34,796 nt of DNA from a virus. The notes beneath the pieces were generated by a model. That model was given only the letters and a program-made list of their open reading frames with translations, searched no databases and had not been told where the DNA came from. The translations under genes were made by a program, and so were the position numbers. Location of the stretch: positions 1 to 34,796 of the IMG/VR virus record IMGVR_UViG_3300008107_000257, one strand, 5' to 3'. Of the stretch, positions 3,001-34,796 are shown one piece after another. Positions within the stretch are counted from its first letter, which is position 1. Each line of letters opens with the position of its first letter.

Positions 3001-6000
3001 TGGATTTAGAGTTGAATCAACTCAAAGGGGTTCTCAATTTAGTGGTTCATTATTTTTGAGTGGTTCAGTATTTTTAAGAACTGGCTCGTTTAGTGGTAGT
3101 GGTAGACAATTATTTGATATTCCGGTAGCTGCACTTTCTGATTTAGATACATCAAAAATATTTAGTGGTTCGGTAACTGCATCTGTATCTCCTAATTTTG
3201 GATTTGTAGTAACATCAGTAGCAAGTGGTTCAACATTTAGTGGAAGTTTAATTGTTAGTGGAAGTACTAAATTTATAATGGGAGTATCCGCTTCTGTATT
3301 TAGTGGTAGTGGTGCTGGATTGACAGATATTCCGTTTTCAGCACTTTCTCAAGAATTATTTAGAATTGCATCTGGGTCAGTAACAGCTTCTGCATTACCA
3401 AATAGAGGGTTTGTAGTTGAATCCGCAGTTAGTGGTTCTACATTAACTGGTAGTGTATTTGTAAGTGGTAGTGTAACTATAAATGCTATCAGCGGAGCAT
3501 TAGTATTAGGTTCTTCATCTGCATATTATGGTGAGGGTACTTATTTAAGAAATATTCCTAGAAACGCTTTAAGTGAAGATGCACTTATATCAACTGAAAT
3601 TAAAAGTGGTTCTGTAACTGCATCCGTTTCCCCTAATTTTGGATTTGTAGTTAAATCGGCTGAAAGTGGTTCTGAATTTACTGGTTCGATTGATGTAAGT
3701 GGAAGTGTCACCGTAAAAAGTGGTTCATTCTTTGTTGGTGATGGTAGATTCCTTAATAATATCACACTAGCTAACTTAGCAATTGATTCTACAAAAATAT
3801 TTAGTGGAAGTGCAACTGCATCAATTTCACCAACGGAAGGATTTGAAGTAAATACTCACTCTAGATTTGATGGTAGCTTTATTGTATCATCTTCAGCAAG
3901 AAATACACCTGAATATGCAATAGATACTATATTTTTAGTAACAAATGATGGTAGTGGTGTTTATAATATAAGTAATGCATTGGTAAGTGGTTCAAACCCA
4001 ACCTTAACTTTGGTAAGAGGTATTGAATATACATTTAGTATAGATGCAAGTGGACATCCATTCTGGATTAAAACAGCTCCTGGTAGTGGAACTAATAATG
4101 CATACAATGATGGTGTAACTAATAATGGTGATGATAGTGGAGTTATTACATTTACACCAACATTAGATGCTCCTAATATTTTGTATTATAATTGTGAGTT
4201 GCATTCAGTAATGGGAGGTACTATCAATGTAATTGATGAAATAATAATACCTGCTGAAATTAAATTTATTGGAGATACTAAAATAGAAGGTAACTTAACT
4301 GCTTCAATGTATAGTGGAAGTGGTAGAGGTTTATTTGATATTCCAATCGCAGCAATATCTGGTGATACTGTTAGAATTGCAAGTGGTAGTGTAACTGCAT
4401 CGGTTTCTCCTGATTATGGACTTGTTGTAATTACTCCGTTTACTTCATCATTTGGTGAAGATGGTTCATTTACCGCATCAATTGCTTCACAATTTACTGG
4501 TTCTGTATCTATATCTGGTAGTTTATTTGTAAATGATATAAGTGGTGGTTTGTTTATTGAATCATCATCATTCGTTTATGCTGAAGGACAATTTTTAAGA
4601 AATATACCTCGTTCGGCACTAACTGAAGATGCTTTAATATCTACTGAAATTAAAAGTGGTAGTGTAACAGCATCAGTAGCACCTGATTATGGATTTAGAG
4701 TAATAACTGATTCAACTTCATCAATTGATGAATTGGGTGTATATACTACACAAATTGGTTCTAGATTTACTGGTTCAGTTGATATAAGTGGTAGTTTATT
4801 TATAAACGAAGTAAGTGGAGCAATATATCTTCAATCATCTTCAAATTATTATGGTGAAGGTAGGTATTTAAGAAACATACCTCGTTCAGCATTGACTGAA
4901 GATGCACTTATTAGTACTGAAATTAAATCAGGTTCAGTAACTGCATCTGTAACACCTGATGAAGGATTTAGAGTAATAACTCCATTCACACAATCGCAAG
5001 TTGGTTCTCAATTCACTGGTTCTTCAGAAATTGGTTCTGAATTTACTGGTTCGGTTAGTATTAGTGGGTCTATATCAGCATTTGATGTTACTTCTACTGG
5101 ATTTTTCTTTGGTGATGGTAGATTCATTACGAACGTTGTAGCAACGGCAGCACCATTTATCGCTAGTGGTTCTGCAACGGCATCGGTAGCAAATGGAGAA
5201 GAATTTAGAGTAATAACTGCAGCAACTGGTTCTCAAATCGGTTCTGAATTTACTGGTTCGATTGAAGTTAGTGGTTCATTAAAAGCTGATGATTTAACAG
5301 CAAGAGGATTTATATTTGGTGATGGTAGATTTATTACAAATGTACAAGCATCCGCAGCACCTTTAATAGCAAGTGGTTCAGCAACTGCATCGGTAGCAAG
5401 TGGTGATACCTTTAGAGTAATAACTGCACCATCGTCTGGTTCATTTAAATCTCAATTCACATCATCGGTAGCAATTAGTGGTTCGGTAACGGCATCATTA
5501 TTCATAGGTGATGGTGGTGGTTTATTTAATATCCCACCTGATGCGATTGAAAACTTAGAGTTAGCAAAAATTAACTCTGGTTCTGGTATAGCAATTATTG
5601 ACCCAACTAAATTAGATGTAAACGTACCAATCACAGCAGCACGTTATGATGGTGATGGTAGTGGATTATTTAACATCCCACCCGAAGCGTTAGATGACCT
5701 TAAAATTGATAGAATTCAGTCTGGTTCATTTGAAGCTGTAATTTCTCCAAATAGAGGTTTAGAAATTGGAGCTAGAACATTCGTATCTGGTAACTTAAGT
5801 GTTAGTGGTGGTTTGTTTGTAACTGGTGGTAACGTAATAATAGCAAGTGGTTCATCATTCGTTGGTGATGGTAGTGGAATAACTAATATCAATATTGCTA
5901 ACTTAGCATTTGAAACTTCTATATTAAAGAGTGGGTCATTCACAGCATCTATTTCACCTAATAACGGATTTGTAGTAAATACATCAGCAAGTATTTGGGG

Positions 6001-8740
6001 CGATGTTTATGCTGGGCATGATTTAATAGCCGCTAATAAAGTATTTGCTCCATTAGTTACTGGTTCGTTCTTAGGTACTTATAATTTCCAAGGAGTAGGA
6101 CCTACTGCATCTGCGGAATATGATATTTTAAGATTTGATGAATCTAGAGGATATTTTGTACCTCAACCTGAAACATCATTAACGGAAACTGTATCATTTA
6201 ATAGTGTAAGTGATTTAACTATTGTACACAATTTAGGTATAAGATACCCAATGGTACAGGTTTACGCAACTGGTTCTGAAGACCAAGTATTGCCTGGTCA
6301 AATTATTTCAATTGATGAAGATACAATACAAATTAAATTTGCTGGATTAACATCTGGACATGTTGTAATTGGTAGTGGTGGTTCTCTGATAAATGGTACA
6401 TTACCCGGTGATAGAGTATTTGGAGCAGTATTATCTGCATCATACGCTGTAACTGCAGAGTTTGCAAAAACTGTAGCAGGATTTGATTCCGCATCATTAG
6501 CATCTTTATCGGCATCACTAAGTGATACGGCTCAATATGTAAGAAATAATCAAACATCATCAATGGCTGTGTTTAGTGCCGTAAGTTCTTCATACGCATT
6601 AACCGCATCTTATGTTGAAAACTTAACTGGATTAAATCTAACTGAATATGTAAGAAACGATAGAACATCTTCAATGAGTGTTTTATCAGCATCATTTGCA
6701 TCAACTGCATCTTACGCATTATTTGCACAAAATGCATCAAATGTAGATACATCAAACTTTGTTCAGAATTCACAAACAGCATCAATGTTGGTTGGAACTG
6801 CTTCATTAGCATTCACCGCATCATACGCTCTTTACGCTTTAAATGCGGAAGGGGTAAATACGGCATCGTTCTTGCAGGTAAATAAAGATTCTACAATTAA
6901 CGCAAATTTAACTATAAGTGGAAGTTTAGGTGTAAGTGGTAGTTTGATATTACAAAACATACCATCTGGTTCATCGGAAGATGTAGTAATTTGGAATAGT
7001 GTAACAAAAAGATTAGAAAGAAGAAATATAGTAGCAGCGGTTGGTTCATCTGGAACTACTGGTACTGGTGGTTCATCTGGTTCAAGTGGGTCAAGCGGTT
7101 CATCGGGAACTTCTGGTACAAGTGGAAGTGCGGGTTCAAGCGGAAGTAGTGGTTCTTCAGGAACTTCTGGTAGTGATGGTTCTTCTGGTTCAAGTGGTTC
7201 AAGCGGAAGTAGTGGTTCATCTGGTTCAAGCGGAAGTAGTGGTTCATCTGGTTCAAGCGGTAGCGGAGGAACATCGGGTTCATCTGGTTCAAGCGGAAGT
7301 AGTGGTTCATCTGGCTCATCTGGTTCATCAGGAACTACTGGTTCAAGCGGAAGTAGTGGAAGTAGTGGGACAAGTGGAAGTAGTGGGACAAGCGGAAGTA
7401 GTGGAAGTAGCGGTACAAGTGGTACAACTGGTTCTGACGGTACTTCTGGTTCAAGCGGAAGTAGTGGAAGTAGCGGAACGTCTGGAACTTCTGGTACATC
7501 GGGTACTTCTGGAACGTCTGGTTCTTCTGGTACATCGGGAACTTCTGGTACAAGTGGTTCAAGCGGTAGTGGTGGTTCATCGGGAACTTCTGGAACTTCT
7601 GGTTCTTCTGGTTCTTCTGGAACTTCTGGTTCTTCTGGAACTTCTGGAACTTCTGGTACTAGTGGTAGTGGGGGTACTTCTGGAACTTCTGGTACTAGTG
7701 GTAGTGGGGGTTCAAGCGGTAGTGGAGGGTCATCTGGTACATCAGGAACAAGTGGTACAACTGGTACGGCAGGTAGTGGAGGTACATCAGGAACTTCTGG
7801 TACTTCTGGTTCATCAGCAACTGCTGGTACTGGGGGTAGTTCTGGTAGTAGCGGTAGTGGTGGTACATCTGGTTCATCAGGAACGTCTGGAACTGGTGGA
7901 ACATCGGGAACATCAGGAACTTCTGGTACTTCTGGAAGTGATGGTATAAGTGGTACTTCTGGTACAAGCGGAACTTCTGGCACAAGCGGAACTTCTGGTA
8001 CATCCGGTAGTACGGGTTCTTCTGGAACAAGTGGTACAAGCGGAAGTAGTGGTTCTTCTGGAACAAGTGGTACAAGTGGTGAAGATGGTTCTTCTGGAAC
8101 TTCTGGAAGTAGCGGTAGTAGTGGTTCTTCTGGTACAACAGGCTCTTCTGGAACAAGTGGTAGTGGTGGTACATCCGGAACTTCTGGTTCTAGTGGTAGT
8201 AGTGGGTCATCTGGTACATCTGGTTCTTCTGGTACAACAGGTTCTTCTGGAACAAGTGGTAGTAGTGGTAGCAGTGGAACATCTGGAACTGATGGTACAT
8301 CTGGCTCATCTGGTTCATCAGGAACTTCTGTACAAGTGGAAGTACAGGTTCTTCTGGAAGTAGTGGAAGTAGCGGTAGTAGTGGAACATCTGGAACTGAT
8401 GGTACGTCTGGTTCAGCTGGTTCAAGCGGTACATCTGGTTCGTCTGGTACAACGGGTTCATCTGGTACAACAGGTTCCGATGGTACGTCTGGAACAAGCG
8501 GAAGTGGTGGTTCTTCTGGAACTTCTGGTTCTGATGGTACTTCTGGCTCATCTGGTACAAGTGGTTCTACTGGAACTGATGGTACAAGTGGAAGTACAGG
8601 TTCTTCTGGAAGTAGTGGAACATCTGGAACTTCTGGTTCTGATGGTACAAGTGGAACTACGGGTTCTGCTGGTACAAGCGGCTCTACTGGAACTGATGGT
8701 ACGTCTGGTACAACTGGTAGTAGTGGTACGTCTGGAATAG
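50..8740 (+). CDS. Giant tail fibre protein, 5' part (beta-module repeats, two cupredoxin-like domains, Gly-X-Y rod)
   Basis: This is a structural, probably trimeric tail-fibre protein. Residues 1-210 hold a fibre-like N-terminus with GSFTGSFTGSYFGDGRDLFNL. Residues ~215-1980 hold about 22 copies of a 55-75-residue module reading roughly SGSVTASVSPNFGFVV, then FTGS, VSGS, GDG and LFNIP. Two inserted domains at ~664-772 and ~1290-1395 look cupredoxin-like: H708/C754/H757/M760 and H1336/C1382/H1385/M1388 match the type-1 copper ligand set. Residues ~2040-2110 carry a NLGIRYPMVQVY segment common in phage fibres, and ~2120-2290 are TASYA-rich. A Gly-X-Y rod of Ser and Thr begins at residue 2332. 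From ~8330 this frame turns into Val/Leu/Glu nonsense and stops at 8740, while the Gly-X-Y pattern continues in the -1 frame to 10920. The real product is therefore probably ~3,623 residues. The ATG at 50 follows an A-rich leader (AAGTAAAGA). Family assignment is firm; receptor and domain roles are inferred. Confidence 0.85.
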   Translation: MAISNLLTGRVRVVSPKNVTSDRYQFLDLSQAEPNLGVPNFSASLSGSPAIVVSDDQGNRGFVRSLDLDRATGAFTGSFTGSFTGSYFGDGRDLFNLPNATFIASGSSTASFVEGDLLINTNARVQGDLYVDDTIYAESIIVSYISSSIIYSSGSNVFGDNYDDTQQFTGSVLVSSSIIVNDITASQSITGSFTGSFFGDGRDLFNLPVATKLATGSVTASVTPEFGFKVESLESGSSFTGSLFVSGNVEIPSGSGFFSGSGEGLFNIPLSALNIDSLVATKIATGSVTASVTPQIGFQVISEQSGSEFTGSINISGSLFVSPFSGSIQLASGSNYYGEGQYLRNIPRSALTEDALISAEIKSGSVTASVSPNFGFVVKSPDSGSEFTGSVDVSGSVTAFAFIGDGSQLTNVQAAAAPRIESGSVTASVSPNFGFKVESIDSGSQFTGSINISGSVFIPSGSGFFSGSGKGLFDIPFTSFTGDAFRIASGSVTASVTPEFGFKVESIRSGSQFTGSVNVTGSIFIPTGSGFFSGSGKGLFDIPRSALTPDALLSNLIASGSVTASVTPDDGFRVNSLESGSKFTGSLFVSGNIEILTGSFSGSGKNLREIPLTAIPDLDLSKIGSGSVTASIRPNEGFKVNTFSTFTGSMIISASAIYLPSESIQTVFNVTNNGVSQYVFTGAISGNNPRLTLVRGITYTFNVNAPGHPFWIKTLETTGTGDAYNDGVTNNGDDVGVVTFTPPAGSPNILYYICQNHFAMKGIIDIVDNILQRGPDVIISGSLFVSDRIVAREVTASISASYIQGDGAGLFNIPRSAFTGDSFRIASGSVTASVSPAFGFRVESTGIGSEFSGSINVSGSITASAVTAVSMSAYDISGSFVGDGSRLRNIVIPPLETTQIASGSVTASAAPNTGLIVKSPDFGSQFTGSIFVSGSRGIELTSGSSYSGSGARLFDIPRTALAPDALDTNRILSGSVTASVSPTFGFRVESTQRGSQFSGSLFLSGSVFLRTGSFSGSGRQLFDIPVAALSDLDTSKIFSGSVTASVSPNFGFVVTSVASGSTFSGSLIVSGSTKFIMGVSASVFSGSGAGLTDIPFSALSQELFRIASGSVTASALPNRGFVVESAVSGSTLTGSVFVSGSVTINAISGALVLGSSSAYYGEGTYLRNIPRNALSEDALISTEIKSGSVTASVSPNFGFVVKSAESGSEFTGSIDVSGSVTVKSGSFFVGDGRFLNNITLANLAIDSTKIFSGSATASISPTEGFEVNTHSRFDGSFIVSSSARNTPEYAIDTIFLVTNDGSGVYNISNALVSGSNPTLTLVRGIEYTFSIDASGHPFWIKTAPGSGTNNAYNDGVTNNGDDSGVITFTPTLDAPNILYYNCELHSVMGGTINVIDEIIIPAEIKFIGDTKIEGNLTASMYSGSGRGLFDIPIAAISGDTVRIASGSVTASVSPDYGLVVITPFTSSFGEDGSFTASIASQFTGSVSISGSLFVNDISGGLFIESSSFVYAEGQFLRNIPRSALTEDALISTEIKSGSVTASVAPDYGFRVITDSTSSIDELGVYTTQIGSRFTGSVDISGSLFINEVSGAIYLQSSSNYYGEGRYLRNIPRSALTEDALISTEIKSGSVTASVTPDEGFRVITPFTQSQVGSQFTGSSEIGSEFTGSVSISGSISAFDVTSTGFFFGDGRFITNVVATAAPFIASGSATASVANGEEFRVITAATGSQIGSEFTGSIEVSGSLKADDLTARGFIFGDGRFITNVQASAAPLIASGSATASVASGDTFRVITAPSSGSFKSQFTSSVAISGSVTASLFIGDGGGLFNIPPDAIENLELAKINSGSGIAIIDPTKLDVNVPITAARYDGDGSGLFNIPPEALDDLKIDRIQSGSFEAVISPNRGLEIGARTFVSGNLSVSGGLFVTGGNVIIASGSSFVGDGSGITNINIANLAFETSILKSGSFTASISPNNGFVVNTSASIWGDVYAGHDLIAANKVFAPLVTGSFLGTYNFQGVGPTASAEYDILRFDESRGYFVPQPETSLTETVSFNSVSDLTIVHNLGIRYPMVQVYATGSEDQVLPGQIISIDEDTIQIKFAGLTSGHVVIGSGGSLINGTLPGDRVFGAVLSASYAVTAEFAKTVAGFDSASLASLSASLSDTAQYVRNNQTSSMAVFSAVSSSYALTASYVENLTGLNLTEYVRNDRTSSMSVLSASFASTASYALFAQNASNVDTSNFVQNSQTASMLVGTASLAFTASYALYALNAEGVNTASFLQVNKDSTINANLTISGSLGVSGSLILQNIPSGSSEDVVIWNSVTKRLERRNIVAAVGSSGTTGTGGSSGSSGSSGSSGTSGTSGSAGSSGSSGSSGTSGSDGSSGSSGSSGSSGSSGSSGSSGSSGSSGSGGTSGSSGSSGSSGSSGSSGSSGTTGSSGSSGSSGTSGSSGTSGSSGSSGTSGTTGSDGTSGSSGSSGSSGTSGTSGTSGTSGTSGSSGTSGTSGTSGSSGSGGSSGTSGTSGSSGSSGTSGSSGTSGTSGTSGSGGTSGTSGTSGSGGSSGSGGSSGTSGTSGTTGTAGSGGTSGTSGTSGSSATAGTGGSSGSSGSGGTSGSSGTSGTGGTSGTSGTSGTSGSDGISGTSGTSGTSGTSGTSGTSGSTGSSGTSGTSGSSGSSGTSGTSGEDGSSGTSGSSGSSGSSGTTGSSGTSGSGGTSGTSGSSGSSGSSGTSGSSGTTGSSGTSGSSGSSGTSGTDGTSGSSGSSGTSVQVEVQVLLEVVEVAVVVEHLELMVRLVQLVQAVHLVRLVQRVHLVQQVPMVRLEQAEVVVLLELLVLMVLLAHLVQVVLLELMVQVEVQVLLEVVEHLELLVLMVQVELRVLLVQAALLELMVRLVQLVVVVRLE
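698..5990 (+). repeat. About 22 degenerate fibre-module repeats (165-230 nt each)
   Basis: Tandem diverged coding repeats, each beginning near [IL]-x-SGS[VA]TAS[VI]-x-P and ending near GDGxxLxNIP. Some units are close copies: NIPRSALTEDALIS appears near 1080, 4600 and 4870, with a variant (NIPRNALSEDALIS) near 3550. The seventh and fourteenth units carry the cupredoxin-like inserts, so those two units are themselves about seven modules apart, which suggests block duplication. Later units (~5140-5990) are shorter and more diverged. Confidence 0.85.
8321..8340 (+). other. Frameshift point in the giant fibre gene (one missing G)
   Basis: The sequence reads TCT GTA CAA GTG at 8327-8338, whereas the surrounding repeat consistently reads TCT GGT ACA AGT. 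Restoring one G between 8330 and 8331 fuses the upstream frame (from 50) to the downstream frame (to 10920) in one Gly-X-Y series of ~3,623 codons. No slippery heptamer is evident, so this looks like a one-base deletion (natural, or a sequencing or assembly error) rather than a typical -1 ribosomal frameshift signal. Confidence 0.8.
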
Positions 8741-8859
8741 ATGGGACGAGTGGAACATCTGGTTCAGATGGTACAAGCGGAAGTAGTGGAAGTAGTGGAA
8801 CTTCAGGAACACAAGGTACATCTGGTTCTGATGGTACTTCTGGTTCAAGCGGAACTTCT

Positions 8860-10140
8860 GGATTAGATGGAACTTATTTTGGTTCAAGTGGGTCAAGTGG
8901 TACATCAGGAACAAGTGGCACATCAGGAACTTCTGGTTCATCTGGTAGTAGCGGTACTTCTGGATTAGATGGAACTTATTTTGGTAGTAGTGGTACGTCT
9001 GGTAGTTCTGGAACTACTGGGTCCGCAGGTACAACAGGAACTTCAGGAACTTCTGGTACAAATGGGTCTGCTGGTACATCTGGAACTTCAGGAACTTCTG
9101 GATTGGATGGAACTTATTTTGGTAGTAGTGGTACGTCTGGTAGTTCTGGAACTACTGGAACAGCTGGAACGTCTGGTACATCTGGTTCTTCTGGTACAAC
9201 AGGTACTTCAGGAACTTCTGGTTTAGATGGAACTTATTTTGGTAGTAGCGGTACTTCTGGGTCTGATGGAACGGCTGGAACTTCTGGAAGTTCTGGTTCT
9301 ACTGGAACGGATGGTACAAGTGGAACTAGTGGTACAAGCGGTTTAGATGGAACATTCTTTGGTTCAAGCGGAAGTAGTGGTTCTTCGGGAACTTCTGGAG
9401 CTGGAACATCAGGTTCAAGCGGAACTTCTGGTTCATCGGGAACTTCTGGTTTAGATGGAACTTATTTTGGTTCAAGCGGAAGTAGTGGTTCTTCGGGAAC
9501 TTCTGGAGCTGGAACATCTGGTTCAAGTGGAAGTACTGGTACGGCTGGTACAACTGGTAGTAGTGGTACATCTGGATTGGATGGTACATTCTTTGGTAGT
9601 AATGGTTCTTCTGGTTCAAGTGGAACAACTGGTACTTCTGGTACAAGCGGAAGTTCTGGTTCATCGGGAACTTCTGGTACATCTGGTTTAGATGGTACAT
9701 TCTTTGGAAGTAGTGGAACTTCAGGTTCTTCTGGAACAAGTGGTATTTCTGGTAGTGATGGTACATCAGGAACTTCTGGAACTTCAGGTTCTTCTGGAAC
9801 AAGTGGATTTGATGGAACTTACTTTGGTAGTAGTGGTACATCAGGAACTTCTGGTACATCGGGAAGTTCGGGTTCTACGGGTACTGATGGTACAAGTGGT
9901 ACGTCTGGTGTAAGCGGTACTTCTGGATTTGATGGAACTTATTTTGGAAGTAGTGGTACTTCTGGCACAAGTGGTAGCGATGGTACTTCTGGAACAACGG
10001 GTACATCTGGTTCAACTGGAACAAACGGAACTTCGGGAACGTCTGGATTTGATGGCACATTCTTTGGTAGTAGTGGTACTTCTGGTACAAGTGGTGCACA
10101 AGGTTCTACTGGTGCAGCTGGAACATCTGGTACGTCTGGA
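8860..10140 (+). repeat. 40-residue super-repeat marked by G[LF]DGT[YF]FGS
   Basis: Eleven copies of G[LF]DGT[YF]FGS start at 8860, 8962, 9100, 9220, 9340, 9448, 9574, 9685, 9805, 9925 and 10045. Spacings are 102, 138, 120, 120, 108, 126, 111, 120, 120 and 120 nt, centred on 120 nt or 40 residues. The extra aromatic residue in each copy breaks the Gly-X-Y phase by one residue, so these are regularly spaced interruptions of the rod. Confidence 0.9.
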
Positions 10141-10920
10141 ACAACTCCTCCAAACTTTACATCTGGTACAAGTGGTAGTGGTGGTACATCTGGTATAACT
10201 GGAACATCTGGTACGTCTGGAACAACTCCTCCAAACTTTACATCAGGAACAGCTGGTACATCGGGAGAAACTGGTACATCGGGAACATCTGGTACAACAC
10301 CTCCAAACTTTACATCTGGAACTGCTGGTTCGGCTGGTACATCTGGACAAACTGGTACATCTGGTACATCCGGTACAACTCCTCCAAATTTTACTTCTGG
10401 TACTTCTGGAACTAATGGATTTGGTTTAACTGGAACTACAAATGATGGATTATTAACATATTCAAATGCTCCTGTTGGCGCGAATGTAGAAACTAATTTA
10501 ACATTTGATGGTACTACATTGACTATTTCTGGTAATACAACTCAAACTGGTGATATAAATTTAACTGGAAATCTAAGTGTAACTGGTTTATCAACATCAA
10601 CTGTATTTAGAGAAACCTATTCAGATTTGGGAACTGGAACTGATGCTACACTAAACCTTTTAACAGCAAATAACTTTAGAAGACAATTTAGTGGTACATC
10701 AACAATAACTTTCTCAAATCCACCAGCATCTAATGCATTTGGATTTACATTCACAATGGTAAATGCTGGTGGTTATGCGATAACATGGCCTGCTAGTGTA
10801 GATTGGGTTAATGGAAGTGCACCAATATTAACATCCATTGGAACTGATGTATTATCATTCTTTACTTTTAATGGTGGTACAACATATTACGGATTTGTAG
10901 TTGGAAAAAATATGAGTTAA
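9103..10920 (+). CDS. Giant tail fibre protein, 3' part (Gly-X-Y rod end and C-terminal head)
   Basis: This is the downstream portion of the giant fibre gene that starts at 50. The frame carries meaningful Gly-X-Y repeats from 8332 onward. The first possible start is the TTG at 9103, which lies inside a repeat and has no leader, so independent translation is unlikely. The part contains G[LF]DGT[YF]FGS super-repeats, then four GTTPPNFTSG units (10138-10404), then a non-repetitive C-terminal region from ~10420. That region includes NLTFDGTTLTISGNTT, which is nearly shared with the second giant fibre after its own rod, and a Trp- and Phe-containing beta-rich head ending in GFVVGKNMS. No S74 chaperone is seen here. 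The head probably trimerises the rod or contacts the receptor (inference). Only 11 nt separate it from the next gene. Confidence 0.75.
   Translation: MDGTYFGSSGTSGSSGTTGTAGTSGTSGSSGTTGTSGTSGLDGTYFGSSGTSGSDGTAGTSGSSGSTGTDGTSGTSGTSGLDGTFFGSSGSSGSSGTSGAGTSGSSGTSGSSGTSGLDGTYFGSSGSSGSSGTSGAGTSGSSGSTGTAGTTGSSGTSGLDGTFFGSNGSSGSSGTTGTSGTSGSSGSSGTSGTSGLDGTFFGSSGTSGSSGTSGISGSDGTSGTSGTSGSSGTSGFDGTYFGSSGTSGTSGTSGSSGSTGTDGTSGTSGVSGTSGFDGTYFGSSGTSGTSGSDGTSGTTGTSGSTGTNGTSGTSGFDGTFFGSSGTSGTSGAQGSTGAAGTSGTSGTTPPNFTSGTSGSGGTSGITGTSGTSGTTPPNFTSGTAGTSGETGTSGTSGTTPPNFTSGTAGSAGTSGQTGTSGTSGTTPPNFTSGTSGTNGFGLTGTTNDGLLTYSNAPVGANVETNLTFDGTTLTISGNTTQTGDINLTGNLSVTGLSTSTVFRETYSDLGTGTDATLNLLTANNFRRQFSGTSTITFSNPPASNAFGFTFTMVNAGGYAITWPASVDWVNGSAPILTSIGTDVLSFFTFNGGTTYYGFVVGKNMS
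10138..10404 (+). repeat. Four GTTPPNFTSG repeats
   Basis: Four copies of TTPPNFTSG have their first proline codon at 10147, 10228, 10300 and 10381, with spacings of 81, 72 and 81 nt. They end the Gly-X-Y rod and are its only proline-containing part. They could act as a capping or trimer-registering segment (inference). Confidence 0.85.
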
Positions 10921-12968: not shown

Positions 12969-15900
12969 ATGGAGTATTTAGGAGGTAACCCTAATGGTTT
13001 AAATCAACTAAGTTCAAGCTTAGTTGCTTTGTATGTAAGTGGAAGTAGAATAGTAGATTTCTCATCGGCATCATTAAATGTTGTTGGAAAAATTACTGCA
13101 TCTGGTGTTCAAACATACGAAATAGATTCTTTTGGAAATTTACCATTAGAAGTAAAGTCCAATACTCAAATAACTGGGTCTTTATCAATATCATCATCTA
13201 TAACTGCATCTTTATTTAGAGGTGATGGTAGTGGATTATTTAATATCAATGCAGATGCAATTGGAGATATTAATCAAATTAAATCTGGTTCGGCAACTGC
13301 AAATATTTCACCAAATAGAGGATTGGTAGTTAATGTACCAACTTCAATTAGTGGTGGGTTAGCGGTAAACGGAAATTCAAACATAACTGGTTCAGTTGTA
13401 ATAAGTCAAAACTTAAATGTGGCTGGAAAAATTACAGCTACTGAATTGCATACAACATTTATTTCATCATCAATAATATATGCTACTGGTTCAAACAAAT
13501 TCGGTGATAATGTAATTGATAGACAAGAAATTACTGGTTCACTAAATGTAAGTGGTTCTATTTCGGTAACAGGAGATTCTATACCAACTGATAATACAAC
13601 AAATGAGGTGTTGGTATTGAACATGACTACCGGTAGAATTAGTAGAAGATTTGCAGCAGCAACTTCTGGTACGTCTGGTACGTCTGGAACATCAGGAACA
13701 TCTGGAACTTCTGGTACAACTGGGTCGGCTGGTACATCAGGAACATCAGGAACTTCTGGAACAAGTGGTACATCGGGAACTTCTGGTAGTGGAGGTACTT
13801 CTGGTACTTCTGGTAGTGGCGGTACATCGGGAACTTCTGGTAGTGGTGGTACGTCTGGAACAAGCGGAAGTGGTGGTACTTCTGGTACTTCTGGTACAAG
13901 AGGAACTTCTGGAACTTCTGGTACTAGTGGTAGTGGCGGTACGTCTGGTTCAACCGGGTCTTCTGGTACATCGGGAAGCGGAGGTACATCAGGAACTTCT
14001 GGGACATCAGGAACTTCTGGAACTACTGGAACGGGTGGTTCTTCTGGTACTTCTGGAACAAGTGGAAGTACTGGTTCATCTGGTTCATCAGGAACTTCTG
14101 GAACATCAGGAACTTCTGGGACAAGCGGAAGTACTGGAACAGCTGGTACGTCTGGTTCAGCTGGTTCATCTGGAGTAAGTGGTACTTCTGGATTAACAGG
14201 AAGTTCTGGTACTGGTGGTTCTTCGGGAACTTCTGGAACATCAGGAACATCTGGTTCAAATGGTTCATCTGGAAGCGGTGGTACTTCTGGAACTTCTGGT
14301 AGTGGTGGTATAAGTGGGGCAGGTGGTTCGGCGGGTACAACTGGTAGTGCTGGTTCTTCTGGAACTTCTGGTACTAGTGGTTCTTCTGGAACTTCTGGCA
14401 CATCAGGAACTTCTGGAACAAGTGGTATTGGTGGAGCTAGTGGTTCTTCTGGAACGTCAGGAACATCTGGAACTTCTGGTTCTTCTGGAACATCTGGTAT
14501 AAACGGAACATCTGGAACTAGTGGTTCAACTGGTACGGCTGGTTCAACTGGAACTGGAGGTTCTTCTGGAACTTCTGGTACATCGGGAACTTCTGGTACA
14601 TCGGGAACTTCTGGTTCATCTGGAACTTCTGGTGCACAGGGTTCTTCTGGTTCTGCTGGAACTTCTGGAACAAGCGGAACTTCTGGAACAAGCGGACAAG
14701 CTGGTGGTGTAAAATATAATTTTAGTACATCAACAACTGATTCGGATCCTGGTGCTGGAACTTTAAGATATAACAACACATCAACTGGATTAATATCTCA
14801 AATATTCATTGATAATACAGACCAATCTGGTGTAACTCAAACTACATGGTTTGATACATGGGATGATTCTACAACAACTTCAGCTAGAGGATATATCGTA
14901 TTATCAAGCAGAGATAATGGTACAATAAACAATATATTTGTAGTAACAGGAGCAGTAACATCTGCAGCTGGATATTACAAAATACCTGTTTCTTATGTAA
15001 GTGGGGTAATTCCTTCTACAAATGGAGCACAATTAGTAATAGATTTCTCAAGAACAGGTAACACTGGTACTGCTGGTTCTTCTGGAACTTCTGGTACAAG
15101 TGGAAGTACGGGTTCTTCTGGAACTACTGGTTCTGCTGGTACAAGCGGAAGTGCTGGTACAAGCGGAAGTGCTGGTACAAGCGGAAGTGCAGGGACTTCT
15201 GGTTCTGCTGGTACTAGTGGTAGTGGTGGTTCTTCTGGAACATCTGGAACTAGTGGTAGTGGAGGTACTTCTGGAACATCTGGAACTGGAGGTACTGCTG
15301 GTAGTAGTGGTACATCTGGAACTTCTGGTACAAGCGGAAGTGGTGGTACATCGGGAACTTCTGGTACAAGCGGAAGTGGTGGAACAGCTGGAACTTCTGG
15401 TACAAGCGGAAGTGGAGGTACTTCTGGTACAAGCGGAAGTGGTGGTACTTCTGGAACAAGCGGAAGTGGTGGTACTTCTGGAACATCGGGTACTTCTGGA
15501 ACTAGAGGTACTGCTGGTAGTGGAGGTACTTCTGGTACATCGGGTACTTCTGGTACATCGGGTACTTCTGGAACAAGCGGAACAAGCGGTAGTGGTGGAA
15601 CTTCTGGTAGTGGTGGAACTGCAGGGACTTCTGGAAGTGGGGGAACTTCTGGATTATTAGCATTAACTGGTACAACTAATAATGGTGTAATCACATTAAA
15701 TGGAACTGCACCAAATGGTACAGTTGAAGCAAATTTAACATTCGATGGTACTACATTAGCAGTAACTGGTAACGCTACAATTAGTGGTGACCTTACTGTA
15801 AGTGGTACAACAACATATATTAATACAACAACTTTAAATGTAGGTGATAACATCATCACATTAAATGCAGATATTGGAGCATCAACTGCACCAACTGAAA

Positions 15901-18900
15901 ATGCTGGTATAGAAGTAAAGAGAGGTAACGCATCAACTGTTTCTTTCTATTGGAATGAATCAACTGATAGATGGTATGCCGATAATACATTACAAGTAAA
16001 TGGTAACGTTGTTCTTAGTGGTACAATTGATACGGGACAAGGCGCTACTGAAGTTTATTTAATGAATCAGAATCTTCGTACAACTGATAACGTAACGTTC
16101 AATCAGGTAACGGCGGGTTCTTTTTTAGGAAATGCAACATCAGCAACAACGGCAACTTATATAAACGTTCAAGATACAAGAGCAGCAGCTAGTACACCAC
16201 AAACTCAAAACGCTAATCAGGGTGTGAGATTTGATTTCAAACAAAACTCAACAAATGGTTTAAGTGATGGTGGTACTTACAATGGTGTAATGTATTTTAG
16301 AAAATATGGAGGTTCAAGTGACTGGAGTGGTGGTGGTGCAAATGAATTAGGATTTACCGATAATGGTAATATGTGGTTAAGATATGGTAGTGGAACTTCT
16401 TGGGGAGCTTGGAAGCGTATAATGGATACAACATCGTACGCATTTGCAGCTAATATGGACCAAAACGTTCGTACAACCGATTCACCTGTTTTTGCTTCAA
16501 TAAATACTGGACCCGGTGTTACCGATGTTCATCTAATGAATCAAAACATTCGTACAACAGACAATGTAACTTTTGCTAATATAACTGGTAATAACTTCAT
16601 TCTTCCACAAAACCCTGTTGGTACAACGTATGGTAATGGTGTATCAACTACTCCACCATATATGTTCTCACAAACTGTTGGTGATAACGATGGTTGGAGA
16701 TTATATGGTGAAACATCGGCAACCAATGCAGTTAGAATGGTTTTTGAATTGGTAGATGATTTGGAAACAGCATTTACAGACCAATGGGCATTTAGAAATA
16801 AATTAACATATGGTGGATATACGGCAAGAAATGAATTCCAAATTTCTGGAGATGGTGATGCGCAAGCTCGTACATCCTTAAGGGCACCAATATTTAGAGA
16901 TTCGGATGACACCGCATTTTATGTAAATCCAAGAAGTGATTCTAGAATGAGTGGACTTCGTTTGGATGGTATTGATAACCAAGCGTCTGGAACTGATGCA
17001 ATTCTTTGGATTAACAAACCAAACAATAATGACTGGGCAATGATTGTTACCGGTGATTTGGAGTATGGTATTGATATGAGGATGGCAAGTGGTCACTCAT
17101 ATGCATATAGAGCATTAAAAGCTGGGTCTGAGTATTATAGAGTTGGTACTGATATGGTATATCATGACTCTAGTATGAGAGCGCCTCTATTTATTGATTC
17201 AACTGATACAACATACAGAATTGATGGTAATGACCTTTCAACTCTTTATAGATTAAGAGTAGGTGGTGCAATATCTACAAACACTTCAAATGGCGCCAAT
17301 ATATTTGGTATGAAATCTGAAGGTGGTAAGTATATTACTCATAACGCATTCGGACAAGATGGTGGATATAATTGGTCATCTACAACTTATGTAACATCAA
17401 ATAGTAATTCCGCAGCAGGTAATACAACATTTAGAGGACCTGGTTCTTGGGAAGGGCATATCGAAGCTGGATATATTACAATTGATGCAACAAAAACTTA
17501 TAAAATATCAGCATGGATTAGAACTGTAAGTGGTAATCCATATTGTTTCTTATCATATAGACAATTTTATTGGGATTATTCAAATCCTGGTAATGGTGGT
17601 TGGGGTAATCCTTACTATTGGACTGGTGTACCACCAACATCTTGGACAGAATATACAATGACAATTGGTCCAGCTGGGTCTGGGGCAAGTTATACCCACA
17701 TGAGTGGTGTTAAATTTGCTCAAGTAGGTTGGTTGCACAATTATTTGTATAGTGGATATAGTGGGCAGGCTGAAATTCAAGGTTTTAGAATTGAAGAAGT
17801 TGATAATACATTAGCAAACAATACAACTGTATTGGGTGATTTATACGCTAGTAGATTTATTGATAATAATGATGGTAGTTTCTTAGCTGACCCTACCGGT
17901 ACTTCTAGATTTGTAAACTTAACTCTAACAGGTCAATTAAACATTCCTAATAATGCATTAATTAATGTTAATAATGAACCTGATGTTTGGGGAGCAAGAT
18001 TTAGAACTACAACATCTACATCAAATTTAGGTTCTGCATTAAAAAATATTATTTGGACTGGTGGTGGTACATCTGAAGGATTTGCTATAAGTGGAGTTGG
18101 TACTGGTGGTTATGCACTTGAAGTTAGAAACGATGGTATCGCTTGGGCTAGAAGTAGCTTCAGAGCACCAGAGCATTTTGGTGACCGATTTTATGATACT
18201 GGTGGAACATTCTTATTTAGAGTTGGAGCAAACAGTGGAAATACAAGACATATCAACTTGTCAAATAGTACATCGGACCCATCTGATGTAGGTTCATCAA
18301 CGGGTATTACATCTGGACAAAGAGGTGATGGACAACCATACTATATGTTCTATGTAAAATCTCCATATAATAACGGAAATTCTACACACACTAGAATGGT
18401 TGTGGGATGGCATACTGGTGTTGAAATAGGAGGTAACCCAGCGTATGGTGGTACTAGATTTATGAGTGATTCTCCTGGTGTAAGTACCAATGAGATAATG
18501 AGTATAGGTAGAGGTGACCAAAACGTAAGAATCACAAATACTTTATTTGCACCATATTTTGCTGATAGAGATAATACTGGATATTATTTGGATTTAGCTA
18601 CTGTTGGTACATCAATCAATATGGCTGGTTCTCTAAACGCAGCAACTTATTATAGACCGGCTATTTTAGTTAATGCGTCTGGAACATCATCTTCTGGTGG
18701 TGCATTAGGTATGCAGCAAGTAACCGGTGAAGGTTGGACAGGTATATTCGTAGATTATGAACCATACACTGGATGGGGATTATGGCATGATAATCCTAAT
18801 AATATGTTTGCGTTCACATCTGAAAGTTCAACTGGACAAATTCGTTCATTCACTGTTCCATCTCGTCAAAGTGGTAACCGAACTGCTTATGAGAAATTTA

Positions 18901-21089
18901 GAGTTGACCAAAATAATGGTGATGTAATTGTTGGTAGAGATGGATATGCTCAATCATCATTTAGAGCACCAATATTCTATGATTCCGCTGATACCACATA
19001 CTATGTTGACCTTAATAGTAGTGCATATTTAAGAGGTCCTGTTAATACCGCAGGTGGGCATAGTACTTCATTATTTAGAGTAATAGCTAGGGCAAGTGAA
19101 ATGGGAACGGGTCAACAATCTCAACTTCAAATGTGGGTATCTGAACCTGGAAACACTTGGAATGATGGCGGATTTGGATTCAATGTTGACAACTCATATC
19201 ATGATGGTTCGGCTGCATACCATTTTAGTAGACCTAATACAAACTATGGGCAGGCTTATATGAGATTTACCACAGCCGGTCATACATATTTTTATAACAC
19301 AAATACTAGTGGTGGTAGGAGTACAAATATGGAAATGTACTCAAGTGGATATGTTTATGTAAATAACTATCTACAAGGTGGTAACTCATTAAGAGCACCT
19401 ATATTTTATGATAGCGATAATACTGGATATTATGTAAATCCAGCTGGAACAACTCAATTAAGTTATGTATTAGCAAACGATTGGTTTAGAGCGCAAGGTG
19501 GTACTGGTTTATATACACAAGACTATGGTTCACACTGGAGAACATCACTTCAATCATCTTATGGTACTTGGGAAACTTATGGATATGCTAGAAATGGTTG
19601 GGCTGGTATCAATATTATAGACCCATCTGGATATTGGAATCACTATATGCATGAAAGTGGTAATGGTGGTTTGTATCAACAAAACGGAAATGGTTGGGTA
19701 TGGTATTATAGTAGAGGAAATGATTGTTTAGGAATTGGGGACTCTTCAACTGTAGGTGGATATGCAGCAAGAATAAATAACTCATTGTATGTAAACTCAA
19801 CTTTGTATACTGGTGGTCCTGTTTATGGTACTATTTTCTATGATTCAAATGATAGTGGATACTACTTAGACCCTAATGGTGTTGACAACCAAGGTTTAAG
19901 AATGAGAGGTGGTACACTTCACGGACCTAACTGGAGTTGGGGTAAATATTTAAGAGTTGGTACTAATGGTAGAATTGATGGAAATCCATCTGTTGTAACT
20001 ACAAATGGTAACTTACACTTAGATTGTGAAAACGGATATGAAACATATATCAATCACTATTCTGGAAATAGAACATATACTTACGAATTAAGAAGTACAT
20101 TTATATACGATTACAATAATACTGGATATTATTGGAATGGTGATGGCACATCCAGAATGCTTACTATTGATGTAAACAATGCGTATTTGGGATTTTTTGA
20201 ACCTTGGGGAGTTGGTGGTAACTCGGGACAGGGAACTCGTGCGTATTCTATCTTCCAAGAAGGTGGAGGGTGGGGTTATCCTTATCCTGATTTAAGAATT
20301 GCATATCACACAGGTATTAAATTAGGTGCAAACGGACCATCATACGAAGGTGTTAGACTATACTCGGATTATGATATGAGTGGTATTCTAATTCAATTGA
20401 GTGGACCTTCAAACTATTCATTCTGGCACACATGGCAGAGATTGGAAGGATACCATGGTATTTATTCTGGATTAAACTCTGCACACTTCTATCCAAATAA
20501 TTCAACTTATGGTACATGGAGAGTTGATGGTACTAGAAGCGGATATGGTGGTATATTATTTGATGTAGGAAACACACCTGTATTGATGTTTGATGGTGGT
20601 GGTAATGGTGGTATCTATTATCAATCTGGTAGATGGATGTTCTATCATTATTTCCCATACAATTGTGTGGGTGTAAATACATCATCAACATCACCTTCGT
20701 ATGGTATGTATGTTTACAGAGGTATTTACGCTACTGAAAATATTGTGGCATACTCTGATAGACGTGCAAAAGAAAACATTGTAACTATTGATTCAGCATT
20801 GGATAAACTACTTCAAATGAGAGGTGTTTATTATAATAGAATAGCAGATGAAAATAAAGTAAGACAAATTGGTGTAATTGCTCAAGAGGTTAATGAGGTT
20901 ATTCCTGAAGCTGTAACATATTGTGATGTTAATGATGAATATGGTGTTTCTTATGGTAATTTAGCAGGTTTATTTATTGAATCTATAAAAGACCAACAAC
21001 AAATTATTGATAAGCAAGCTGAAGAAATAAATTTATTAAAAGATGAATTACAAAAAATTAAAGATTTAATACTTAATATTAAAGGATAA
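12969..21089 (+). CDS. Giant tail fibre with two Gly-X-Y rods and C-terminal S74 self-cleaving chaperone
   Basis: A 2,706-residue fibre. Residues 1-230 are fibre modules related to the first giant (FRGDGSGLFNI, SSSIIYATGSNKFGD). Residues 234-577 are a Gly-X-Y rod. Residues 580-696 form a globular insert (GVKYNFSTSTTDSDPG). Residues 697-895 are a second rod. Then come NLTFDGTTLAVTGNAT and YINTTTLNVGDNIITLNADI, a knob-like domain at ~1100-1158 (GAWKRIMDTTSY), and a Trp/Tyr-rich jelly-roll, lectin-like segment at ~1473-1613. About nine RAPIFYDSxDTxYYV units run from ~1300 to ~2400. Residues 2596-2706 are a peptidase S74 intramolecular chaperone: SDRRAKENI gives the S2596/K2601 dyad, followed by IGVIAQEVNEV and a terminal coiled coil. 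Cleavage before S2596 would release the folded trimer (family knowledge). The ATG at 12969 is chosen because the one at 12965 hits a stop at once. Confidence 0.88.
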   Translation: MEYLGGNPNGLNQLSSSLVALYVSGSRIVDFSSASLNVVGKITASGVQTYEIDSFGNLPLEVKSNTQITGSLSISSSITASLFRGDGSGLFNINADAIGDINQIKSGSATANISPNRGLVVNVPTSISGGLAVNGNSNITGSVVISQNLNVAGKITATELHTTFISSSIIYATGSNKFGDNVIDRQEITGSLNVSGSISVTGDSIPTDNTTNEVLVLNMTTGRISRRFAAATSGTSGTSGTSGTSGTSGTTGSAGTSGTSGTSGTSGTSGTSGSGGTSGTSGSGGTSGTSGSGGTSGTSGSGGTSGTSGTRGTSGTSGTSGSGGTSGSTGSSGTSGSGGTSGTSGTSGTSGTTGTGGSSGTSGTSGSTGSSGSSGTSGTSGTSGTSGSTGTAGTSGSAGSSGVSGTSGLTGSSGTGGSSGTSGTSGTSGSNGSSGSGGTSGTSGSGGISGAGGSAGTTGSAGSSGTSGTSGSSGTSGTSGTSGTSGIGGASGSSGTSGTSGTSGSSGTSGINGTSGTSGSTGTAGSTGTGGSSGTSGTSGTSGTSGTSGSSGTSGAQGSSGSAGTSGTSGTSGTSGQAGGVKYNFSTSTTDSDPGAGTLRYNNTSTGLISQIFIDNTDQSGVTQTTWFDTWDDSTTTSARGYIVLSSRDNGTINNIFVVTGAVTSAAGYYKIPVSYVSGVIPSTNGAQLVIDFSRTGNTGTAGSSGTSGTSGSTGSSGTTGSAGTSGSAGTSGSAGTSGSAGTSGSAGTSGSGGSSGTSGTSGSGGTSGTSGTGGTAGSSGTSGTSGTSGSGGTSGTSGTSGSGGTAGTSGTSGSGGTSGTSGSGGTSGTSGSGGTSGTSGTSGTRGTAGSGGTSGTSGTSGTSGTSGTSGTSGSGGTSGSGGTAGTSGSGGTSGLLALTGTTNNGVITLNGTAPNGTVEANLTFDGTTLAVTGNATISGDLTVSGTTTYINTTTLNVGDNIITLNADIGASTAPTENAGIEVKRGNASTVSFYWNESTDRWYADNTLQVNGNVVLSGTIDTGQGATEVYLMNQNLRTTDNVTFNQVTAGSFLGNATSATTATYINVQDTRAAASTPQTQNANQGVRFDFKQNSTNGLSDGGTYNGVMYFRKYGGSSDWSGGGANELGFTDNGNMWLRYGSGTSWGAWKRIMDTTSYAFAANMDQNVRTTDSPVFASINTGPGVTDVHLMNQNIRTTDNVTFANITGNNFILPQNPVGTTYGNGVSTTPPYMFSQTVGDNDGWRLYGETSATNAVRMVFELVDDLETAFTDQWAFRNKLTYGGYTARNEFQISGDGDAQARTSLRAPIFRDSDDTAFYVNPRSDSRMSGLRLDGIDNQASGTDAILWINKPNNNDWAMIVTGDLEYGIDMRMASGHSYAYRALKAGSEYYRVGTDMVYHDSSMRAPLFIDSTDTTYRIDGNDLSTLYRLRVGGAISTNTSNGANIFGMKSEGGKYITHNAFGQDGGYNWSSTTYVTSNSNSAAGNTTFRGPGSWEGHIEAGYITIDATKTYKISAWIRTVSGNPYCFLSYRQFYWDYSNPGNGGWGNPYYWTGVPPTSWTEYTMTIGPAGSGASYTHMSGVKFAQVGWLHNYLYSGYSGQAEIQGFRIEEVDNTLANNTTVLGDLYASRFIDNNDGSFLADPTGTSRFVNLTLTGQLNIPNNALINVNNEPDVWGARFRTTTSTSNLGSALKNIIWTGGGTSEGFAISGVGTGGYALEVRNDGIAWARSSFRAPEHFGDRFYDTGGTFLFRVGANSGNTRHINLSNSTSDPSDVGSSTGITSGQRGDGQPYYMFYVKSPYNNGNSTHTRMVVGWHTGVEIGGNPAYGGTRFMSDSPGVSTNEIMSIGRGDQNVRITNTLFAPYFADRDNTGYYLDLATVGTSINMAGSLNAATYYRPAILVNASGTSSSGGALGMQQVTGEGWTGIFVDYEPYTGWGLWHDNPNNMFAFTSESSTGQIRSFTVPSRQSGNRTAYEKFRVDQNNGDVIVGRDGYAQSSFRAPIFYDSADTTYYVDLNSSAYLRGPVNTAGGHSTSLFRVIARASEMGTGQQSQLQMWVSEPGNTWNDGGFGFNVDNSYHDGSAAYHFSRPNTNYGQAYMRFTTAGHTYFYNTNTSGGRSTNMEMYSSGYVYVNNYLQGGNSLRAPIFYDSDNTGYYVNPAGTTQLSYVLANDWFRAQGGTGLYTQDYGSHWRTSLQSSYGTWETYGYARNGWAGINIIDPSGYWNHYMHESGNGGLYQQNGNGWVWYYSRGNDCLGIGDSSTVGGYAARINNSLYVNSTLYTGGPVYGTIFYDSNDSGYYLDPNGVDNQGLRMRGGTLHGPNWSWGKYLRVGTNGRIDGNPSVVTTNGNLHLDCENGYETYINHYSGNRTYTYELRSTFIYDYNNTGYYWNGDGTSRMLTIDVNNAYLGFFEPWGVGGNSGQGTRAYSIFQEGGGWGYPYPDLRIAYHTGIKLGANGPSYEGVRLYSDYDMSGILIQLSGPSNYSFWHTWQRLEGYHGIYSGLNSAHFYPNNSTYGTWRVDGTRSGYGGILFDVGNTPVLMFDGGGNGGIYYQSGRWMFYHYFPYNCVGVNTSSTSPSYGMYVYRGIYATENIVAYSDRRAKENIVTIDSALDKLLQMRGVYYNRIADENKVRQIGVIAQEVNEVIPEAVTYCDVNDEYGVSYGNLAGLFIESIKDQQQIIDKQAEEINLLKDELQKIKDLILNIKG
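13668..14700 (+). repeat. Gly-X-Y rod repeat 1 of the second giant fibre
   Basis: About 344 residues of G-T-S, G-S-S, G-S-G and G-T-A triplets with almost no proline. DNA is very similar in unit composition to the rod in the first giant fibre, so the two genes offer long stretches for recombination or slippage. The frame is intact throughout. Confidence 0.9.
15057..15653 (+). repeat. Gly-X-Y rod repeat 2 of the second giant fibre
   Basis: About 199 residues of the same Gly-X-Y composition, separated from rod 1 by a 117-residue globular insert. Sub-blocks recur, such as GTSGSGGTSGTSGSGG and repeated GSAGTSGSAGTS. Confidence 0.9.
16870..20160 (+). repeat. Nine 'RAPIFYDSxDTxYYV' fibre-shaft repeats
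   Basis: Diverged coding repeats near 16875, 17178, 17840, 18160, 18540, 18960, 19390, 19816 and 20098, with a core of LRAPIFYDSDNTGYYVNP. Each is followed by a distinct 80-200-residue segment, so the shaft alternates a conserved linker with variable, aromatic-rich domains. The linker type is known from other phage fibres. The last unit leads into the S74 domain. Confidence 0.8.
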
Positions 21090-34279: not shown

Positions 34280-34651
34280 ATGTTAGATATTAATCGATAT
34301 AAAAAAATAAATAGTCCTGATGTACTTTATAATAGTATAAAGATAAAAACTCATGTGGCAACACCAACTCAAACGGATTATAAAAGAGGATATATAACAA
34401 GATATTTTATACAAAAAGCAAACGATACTGAATCAACTATATATGAAGTGGATTATATAGGGTTTAGTAAATTTATAGATAATCCATTTTATACACATGT
34501 AAATTTAAATTGGAGATTGATTGGTACTGATGAGCAAATAAAGGATTCTAATTTTAAAGCAATACGTTTATTGGCTCCAAAAATACCAAAACTTCAATTG
34601 TATCTTCCAAACTTATTACAGTTTAAGCAAAAAAATGATTTGGAAGTTTAA
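34280..34651 (+). CDS. Small baseplate-cluster protein of unknown function
   Basis: 123 residues, starting 1 nt after the hub stop and so probably translationally coupled. Features include TDYKRGYITRYFIQKANDTE, NPFYTHVNLNWRLIGTDEQIKD and SNFKAIRLLAPKIPKLQLYL. The Lys/Leu-rich C-terminus and lack of catalytic motifs suggest a small structural or assembly protein. I recall similar small proteins after hub genes in aquatic T4-like phages but cannot name a function. The -33 box of the next promoter lies inside its last codons. Confidence 0.6.
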   Translation: MLDINRYKKINSPDVLYNSIKIKTHVATPTQTDYKRGYITRYFIQKANDTESTIYEVDYIGFSKFIDNPFYTHVNLNWRLIGTDEQIKDSNFKAIRLLAPKIPKLQLYLPNLLQFKQKNDLEV

Positions 34652-34670
34652 TTATTTTTTCGTATATTTG
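34639..34670 (+). promoter_or_regulatory. Bacteroidetes-type promoter before the tmRNA
   Basis: TTTG at 34639-34642, a 20-nt spacer, then TATATTTG at 34663-34670, matching the Bacteroidetes housekeeping consensus (-33 TTTG, -7 TAnnTTTG). Expected transcription start is about 34677, shortly before the tmRNA 5' GGGG at 34685. It would be read by the host RNA polymerase. Confidence 0.6.
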
Positions 34671-34678
34671 TATTTATA
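34671..34678 (+). promoter_or_regulatory. TATTTATA element before the tmRNA
   Basis: An exact copy of the recurrent octamer immediately after the host-type -7 box. It overlaps TATAAATA (34675-34682), which is identical to the T4 late box. This region may carry both host and phage promoter elements. Confidence 0.35.
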
Positions 34679-34684
34679 AATAAT

Positions 34685-34796
34685 GGGGATGTGATGGCAT
34701 TTGATTGCAATGCGAATAGTAGTATCACACGTAGTGGGATGGGTTCTCTCACCACTTTAATCTCGGAATCAAACAATAACCGACGTAGAATTATCT
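34685..34796 (+). ncRNA. ssrA: tmRNA (ssrA), 5' half, cut by the window end
   Basis: Starts with GGGGATG (acceptor stem 5' strand), then a D-arm-like GGCATTTGATTGC. A PK1-type pseudoknot follows: stem 1 AGTGG (34733-34737) with CCACT (34752-34756), stem 2 GGTTCT (34742-34747) with GGAATC (34765-34770). After 11 nt a tag frame may begin at GAC GTA GAA TTA TCT (34782-34796; D-V-E-L-S). The layout and the CACTTTAATCTC...ATCAAA segment closely resemble Bacteroides tmRNA as I remember it, with stem 2 changed on both sides. tmRNA rescues stalled ribosomes. The rest of the tag and the 3' tRNA-like half lie beyond the window. Alternative: another structured RNA, less likely. Confidence 0.82.

Follow-up and report, generated by a model that had tools for sequence, protein, structure and literature searches.

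A tmRNA releases stalled ribosomes and labels the incomplete protein; tmRNAs encoded by phages are already known. A 2014 survey lists ten phages with ssrA, mostly mycobacteriophages (PMC4131195), and of the 97,179 tmRNA sequences in a 2025 database, 79 come from bacteriophages, ten residues being the commonest tag length in that database (PMC11915505). Full tmRNAs exist in the Mycobacterium phages Bxz1, Cali, Catera, and Wildcat and in Bacillus phage G, often beside tRNA genes (PMC4131195). Huge phages encode tmRNAs and SmpB, and ribosome rescue during infection has been proposed for them (Al-Shayeb 2020, PMC7162821).

The locus that we analyze here resembles these systems in specifying a full phage tmRNA. 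It differs from those of Bxz1, Cali, Catera, Wildcat, and phage G in its hosts and in its sequence, which is unrelated. Specifically, the phage G tmRNA (67.6 bits) has a 13-residue tag according to ARAGORN, and lacks DVELST...DYAVAA, a tag that no record of the phage collection matches. Unlike the huge phages, the phages studied here yielded no SmpB, and the available portion of the huge-phage report (PMC7162821) makes no mention of a conserved long tag. That tag, a conserved phage peptide of 23-26 residues that we did not find in the literature searched (partial coverage), is what is new.

The 5′ part of a tmRNA at a contig end

The window, meaning the whole stretch of DNA that was analyzed, is IMG/VR record IMGVR_UViG_3300008107_000257, a virus fragment of 34,796 bases that encodes tail sheath, tail tube, and baseplate genes. 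Its best named tail-sheath relatives belong to Microcystis phage Mel-JY01 (47.5%), a 484-kb uncultured phage, and the Flavobacterium phages immuto; because these are the closest named sheaths, a T4-like myovirus is the most likely identity. The type of promoter, together with the tail-sheath relatives in Flavobacterium phages, leads us to infer a Bacteroidota host. Very long tail proteins with SGSSGTSG repeats are encoded at 50-10920 and 12969-21089. The reading frame of the first changes near 8300, and its composition recurs in an ORF that continues at 9103-10920, pointing to an indel or assembly error within the repeats.

The final segment of the window contains the following features:

34280-34651, + strand: 123-aa gene of the baseplate/tail region, directly upstream of the tmRNA; the last ORF in the window
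34639-34670, + strand: putative Bacteroidota-type promoter (-33 TTTG, 20 nt, -7 TATATTTG), overlapping the last codons of the 123-aa gene
34685-34796, + strand: 5′ part of a phage tmRNA, 112 nt, ended by the contig end; 90-bit model match and identity with L041
34685-34691, + strand: 5′ strand of the acceptor stem, GGGGATG; in relatives it pairs with CATCTCC, leaving G3.U70
34733-34756, + strand: PK1 stem 1, AGTGG (34733-34737) with CCACT (34752-34756); 100% of cells paired, one pair changed two-sidedly
34742-34770, + strand: PK1 stem 2, GGTTCT (34742-34747) with GGAATC (34765-34770); 93.9% of cells paired, one two-sided change
34782-34796, + strand: start of the tag frame, possible resume codon GAC, D-V-E-L-S and then the contig end; from the sequence and homologous tags

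A sequence-only reading of this DNA had described a promoter, an acceptor strand, PK1, a possible resume codon, and the tag start DVELS, and all of these are in the window. The acceptor strand GGGGATG begins after 33 nt that follow the end of the 123-aa ORF. The candidate resume codon, GAC at 34782, lies 11 nt past PK1, and the window holds the first 5 tag codons only. In the complete tmRNA of the viral contig L041, the tag frame reads DVELSTWNFEDAMAFVGAYDYAVAA and ends in a stop codon.

The central claim of that reading, a phage-encoded tmRNA, is borne out by a 112/112 identity with the complete L041 tmRNA. Because identity with a single record could hide an error, we also derived a sequence model from the 5′ parts of 11 tmRNAs of other phages, with no copy identical to the window included. 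This model matches the window once, at 34685-34796, with 90 bits and E=3e-27. When given the window alone, ARAGORN and Rfam report no tmRNA, and they are silent because the copy is truncated. Over 11 sequences, 96.7% of PK1 cells are paired, two pairs show two-sided changes, and, as a control, sliding the partner lowers whole-structure pairing to 33-53%. Stem 2 had been noted to differ on both strands from the Bacteroides version, GGTAAT/GTTATC; that two-sided change holds because the latter stem is actually present in the GETNYALAA-type tmRNA of viral contig L205. We regard the observation as confirmed: 34685-34796 is the start of a genuine tmRNA carried by a phage.

Complete relatives supply the remaining two thirds

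Relatives of the locus were located via the 123-aa gene. The 123-aa protein has no family in Pfam or PHROG, and 80 viral contigs encode a relative of it. In about 30 of the 80, ARAGORN finds complete tmRNAs directly behind the 123-aa gene. The 112 nt of the window are identical, letter for letter, to the tmRNA starts in L041, L043, L081, L085, L092, and L104. The 3′ two thirds of the gene are seen only in such relatives and are presumed for the window virus, which supplies the 5′ third.

L041 encodes a complete 395-nt tmRNA with a 3′ acceptor strand, a T-arm, G3.U70, and a tag stop. It scores 73.3 bits with Rfam RF00023, for which the cut-off is 47 bits. Other complete relatives score 67.7-115.2 bits, and the cut-off is exceeded in 12 of the 15 records searched. 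Among unique complete copies, the acceptor stem is paired at 7/7 positions, always with G3.U70 (3′ strand ...TCC), and the T-arm is present. The acceptor variants are compensatory: GGGGATG/CATCTCC, GGGGGTG/CACCTCC, GGGGCCG/CGGCTCC, and GGGGGAT/ATCCTCC. G3.U70 is the alanine identity pair read by AlaRS. The sequence-only reading had predicted, for the complete gene, a complementary 3′ strand and a T-arm within ~400 nt, an ALAA-like tag end plus stop, and a sound covariance score. In complete relatives, CATCTCC pairs with GGGGATG, the T-arm is present, and the tag ends in YAVAA plus stop; the L041 score lies above the RF00023 cut-off.

Promoter, neighborhood, and the contig end

With both a promoter motif of its own and a downstream terminator-like hairpin, the tmRNA seems to be transcribed as a separate unit. 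The motif had been proposed as a Bacteroidota-type promoter adjoining tail genes, and relatives agree. Specifically, in phages that carry the tmRNA gene behind the 123-aa gene (context A), TAnnTTT[G/A] occurs in all 30 distinct upstream stretches, and the full TTTG-N19-21-TAnnTTTG occurs in 19 of the 30 versus 0.15% of shuffles. Within the window, the promoter motif has 4 matches versus 1.24 expected, which is weak evidence taken alone. A terminator-like hairpin with a T-run lies downstream of the tmRNA gene (z=-5.9 in L041).

The tmRNA site is located between a baseplate-region gene upstream and, past the terminator, a gene matching PHROG DNA polymerases downstream. In 44 relatives, the contig reaches 700 nt or more past the 123-aa gene; 28 of these have the tmRNA and 16 lack it. 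In the distant relatives L066-L068, the next coding sequence follows the 123-aa gene directly, and the site is empty. The tmRNA is accessory. Other phages have this tmRNA family within tRNA arrays (context B).

It could be that the tmRNA is real and that its presence here is an assembly chimera, with the gene of a co-occurring phage such as L041 joined at the contig end. Several observations favor this: the 112 nt match L041 exactly although the flanking proteins share only 48% identity; L001 and L002 stop at the same base as the window; and 36 of the 80 related contigs end no more than 700 nt from the 123-aa gene. Furthermore, the tmRNA of the near relative L003 is 86% identical although its 123-aa gene is 94% identical (DNA). 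We nonetheless judge a chimera unlikely. The promoter runs on unbroken from the flank, transfer of the tmRNA gene among phages also explains the identity, and L003-L006 have a tmRNA of this family at the corresponding site, which means that this virus would have one in any case. The identity with L041 suggests either that phages have exchanged the gene or that the assemblies took a common path at the contig end. Among L001-L080, contig ends near the 123-aa gene lie mostly inside the tmRNA, indicating a systematic assembly break; ends at this site are expected when a conserved gene is common to co-occurring strains. Because many related contigs break inside the gene, phage tmRNAs are probably under-counted in metagenomes, hidden from ARAGORN and Rfam.

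A long and conserved tag

Complete relatives specify a tag of 23-26 aa with the consensus (D)VELST[W/M]TFEDAMAFVGADYAVAA. The tag takes the form DVELSTWNFEDAMAFVGAYDYAVAA in L041, DVELSTMTFEDAMAFVGADYAVAA in others, and DEMSTMTFDSMMEFIGASEYAYAA in the most distant relatives. Its C-terminus is A-(V/L/I/Y)-A-A-stop, and the resume codon is GAC, GCA, or AAC. The start DVELS had been predicted to be unusual, and it proves to open a conserved 23-26-residue peptide without a match among tmRNAs of the cellular genomes scanned.

The tag peptide appears to be under purifying selection because, over the first 14 tag codons, pN/pS is 0.32 (24 distinct sequences; the measure ignores RNA-level constraint) and differences are concentrated at third codon positions. 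Its conservation extends over tmRNAs with at least three distinct PK1 sequences. In the last tag codons, a swap between GCT-GTA-GCA and GCA-GTA-GCT preserves the amino acids and also a hairpin, the latter identified by inspection.

ARAGORN gives other tags, namely VNKPEHYLSAP, VNNPEHYLSAP, EQPQLYLSAV, and VNKTELYLSAL, and such misread frames occur in L006, L010, L014-L017, L023, and L041. We reject them as the wrong frame, since each of these tmRNAs has the conserved long-tag frame open. We also considered a resemblance to the capsid-targeting peptides of T4 and set it aside because no evidence supported it. A search for the tag core through 2.4 Mb of DNA gave a single match beyond the tags, which a stop codon immediately precedes; nearby phage proteins thus share no docking motif with the tag.

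The extension is dispensable in some phages. Viral contigs of 287 kb and 266 kb encode tmRNAs (L221:1511-1856 and L226:312-691, respectively) with the short, host-like tags GVNNYALAA and VNNYALAA and no extension. On the tree, both tmRNAs fall inside the long-tag part, and they have the same RNA body and PK1 type as some members of the long-tag family. Because these two share the RNA body yet carry short tags, the extension can be gained or lost.

Phage and host partners

SmpB was not found in 20 phage records, nor were ClpX-type and SspB proteins in 17; these records are fragments, so the absences are weak evidence, as for smpB in particular because phage contigs are incomplete. Since SmpB, SspB, and ClpX were all missing from the phage records, the phage tmRNA probably works via host SmpB and host proteases. 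In 3 of 17 records (L197:2362-2904, and also G013 and G020), all from closely related phages with tRNA arrays, the long-tag tmRNA has a ClpP-like protease gene 3-4 kb away. We do not use this proximity as main evidence: the 3 of 17 are closely related, and the PHROGs name also covers head maturation proteases. The proximity may be coincidence.

If no phage SmpB exists, that of the host must be shared, and the tmRNA could then be chiefly a decoy that competes with the host tmRNA for SmpB and AlaRS and whose tag has little importance. A comparable case is the form of mycobacteriophage DS6A that has only the tRNA-like domain (TLD-only), which is reported to inhibit tmRNA (PMC4131195, PMC11915505). 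We consider this role improbable: nothing is missing from the mRNA-like part, which has PK1, an open frame, a stop codon, and a tag conserved in its amino acids, all of which are needless for a decoy.

Distribution in viruses and cells

A tag scan of viral contigs confirmed 211 stretches. The sequence-only reading had presented the tmRNA as phage-encoded and phage tmRNAs as rare. The first part stands; given the 211 stretches, the tmRNA is no isolated oddity. The tag-bearing tmRNA is absent from the genomes of 84,980 bacterial and archaeal species, as judged by a single short-peptide-pattern scan of one genome per species. We discount as chance the lone cellular tag match, which lies inside a coding sequence of a WOR-3 genome. 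The named phages of INPHARED gave no tmRNA-wide DNA match and no tag match, the latter with an insensitive search (tblastn, 24-residue query).

Bacteroidota tmRNAs (L200, L205, L207, L214, L218, and L234) are similar in overall plan: they are ~390-400 nt long, have a G3.U70 acceptor, PK1 before the tag, a resume codon near position 95, and a tag end xYALAA. They differ in their downstream pseudoknot sequences, and they form a separate clade in the tree. Their tags differ as well. The tags seen in the viral contigs L200-L234, of the GENNYALAA and GETNYALAA type and with GESNYALAA and GEENYALAA as further forms, are Bacteroidota-type and have 9 residues versus 23-26 in the phage family. The long-tag family lies outside the short-tag pattern of host-type Bacteroidota tmRNAs (xxNNYALAA, 9 aa). 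It is scarcely credible that our gene came from the host, either as a tmRNA captured with an attachment site or as host DNA lying at the contig end: ssrA is often used by integrating elements, and host-type tmRNAs exist in some viral contigs (L200-L234), but the gene order is identical across dozens of independent contigs, the tag is in no cellular genome scanned, Bacteroidota-type tmRNAs are placed apart in the tree, and the family also occurs within phage tRNA arrays.

Other phage tmRNAs came to light in the course of the analysis. The 484-kb uncultured phage (LR756508.1) contains a 112-nt tmRNA-like gene (L179:205-316, 414804-414915; RF00023 58.2 bits) with acceptor GGGGGCG/CGCCTCC, G3.U70, a T-arm, and no tag region, like the TLD-only form of DS6A. 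The same genome also has a full tmRNA elsewhere (L178:135-581, 92434-92880), whose tag, read by eye, has ~36 residues (GVNNADYESAGFTAEDFAQMDG...KPAAV); ARAGORN gives a different frame. Huge phages may commonly have long tags. Mycobacterium phage Nanosmite (MW578836.1; L186:1501-1853 and 2740-3117) has a strong tmRNA (111.5 bits) and a GOLLD RNA (192 bits), and the tmRNA is missing from the record's annotation of the stretch viewed. Finally, Brevundimonas phage Kabachok (ON529852.1 270584-270715) has a sub-threshold tmRNA match of 132 nt and 32.1 bits, possibly a reduced tmRNA-like gene.

A proposed function for the tagged tmRNA

Very probably, the 112 nt at 34685-34796 form the 5′ third of a phage ssrA that is functional and carries out host-dependent rescue with a long tag, a function that we infer from the conserved parts. 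The own, host-type promoter would direct transcription from a few nucleotides upstream of the tmRNA. Host RNase P and the CCA enzyme would mature the RNA, and host AlaRS would presumably charge it via G3.U70. Together with host EF-Tu and, we presume, host SmpB, the phage tmRNA would enter ribosomes stalled on truncated mRNAs during infection, when rescue would be needed on broken messages as host transcription fails. The ribosome would switch to the tmRNA frame at GAC and add the 23-26-residue tag ending in A-(V/L/I/Y)-A-A. That end resembles known Clp degrons and should be recognized by host Clp-type proteases, with proteolysis as the presumed outcome.

The extra ~15 residues between the resume codon and DYAVAA are most likely a peptide signal selected by the phage, for example for docking to an adaptor or protease, and not filler. 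We tentatively raise the more specific, and doubtful, possibility that (D)VELST[W/M]TFEDAMAFVGA is a phage-specific address to an adaptor, a protease (perhaps the ClpP-like enzyme encoded nearby in three of these phages), or a site.

This one tag alone was confirmed in 211 viral stretches; no tmRNA in the cellular genomes scanned has it. It appears that phages own a rescue tag, one in which the peptide is conserved and the surrounding RNA body has diverged. The finding makes a question testable: why would a phage alter the label on unfinished proteins? If the tag is an address, stalled products would be delivered to a destination chosen by the phage, beyond routine disposal, and the phages with a short, host-like tag would dispense with that address.
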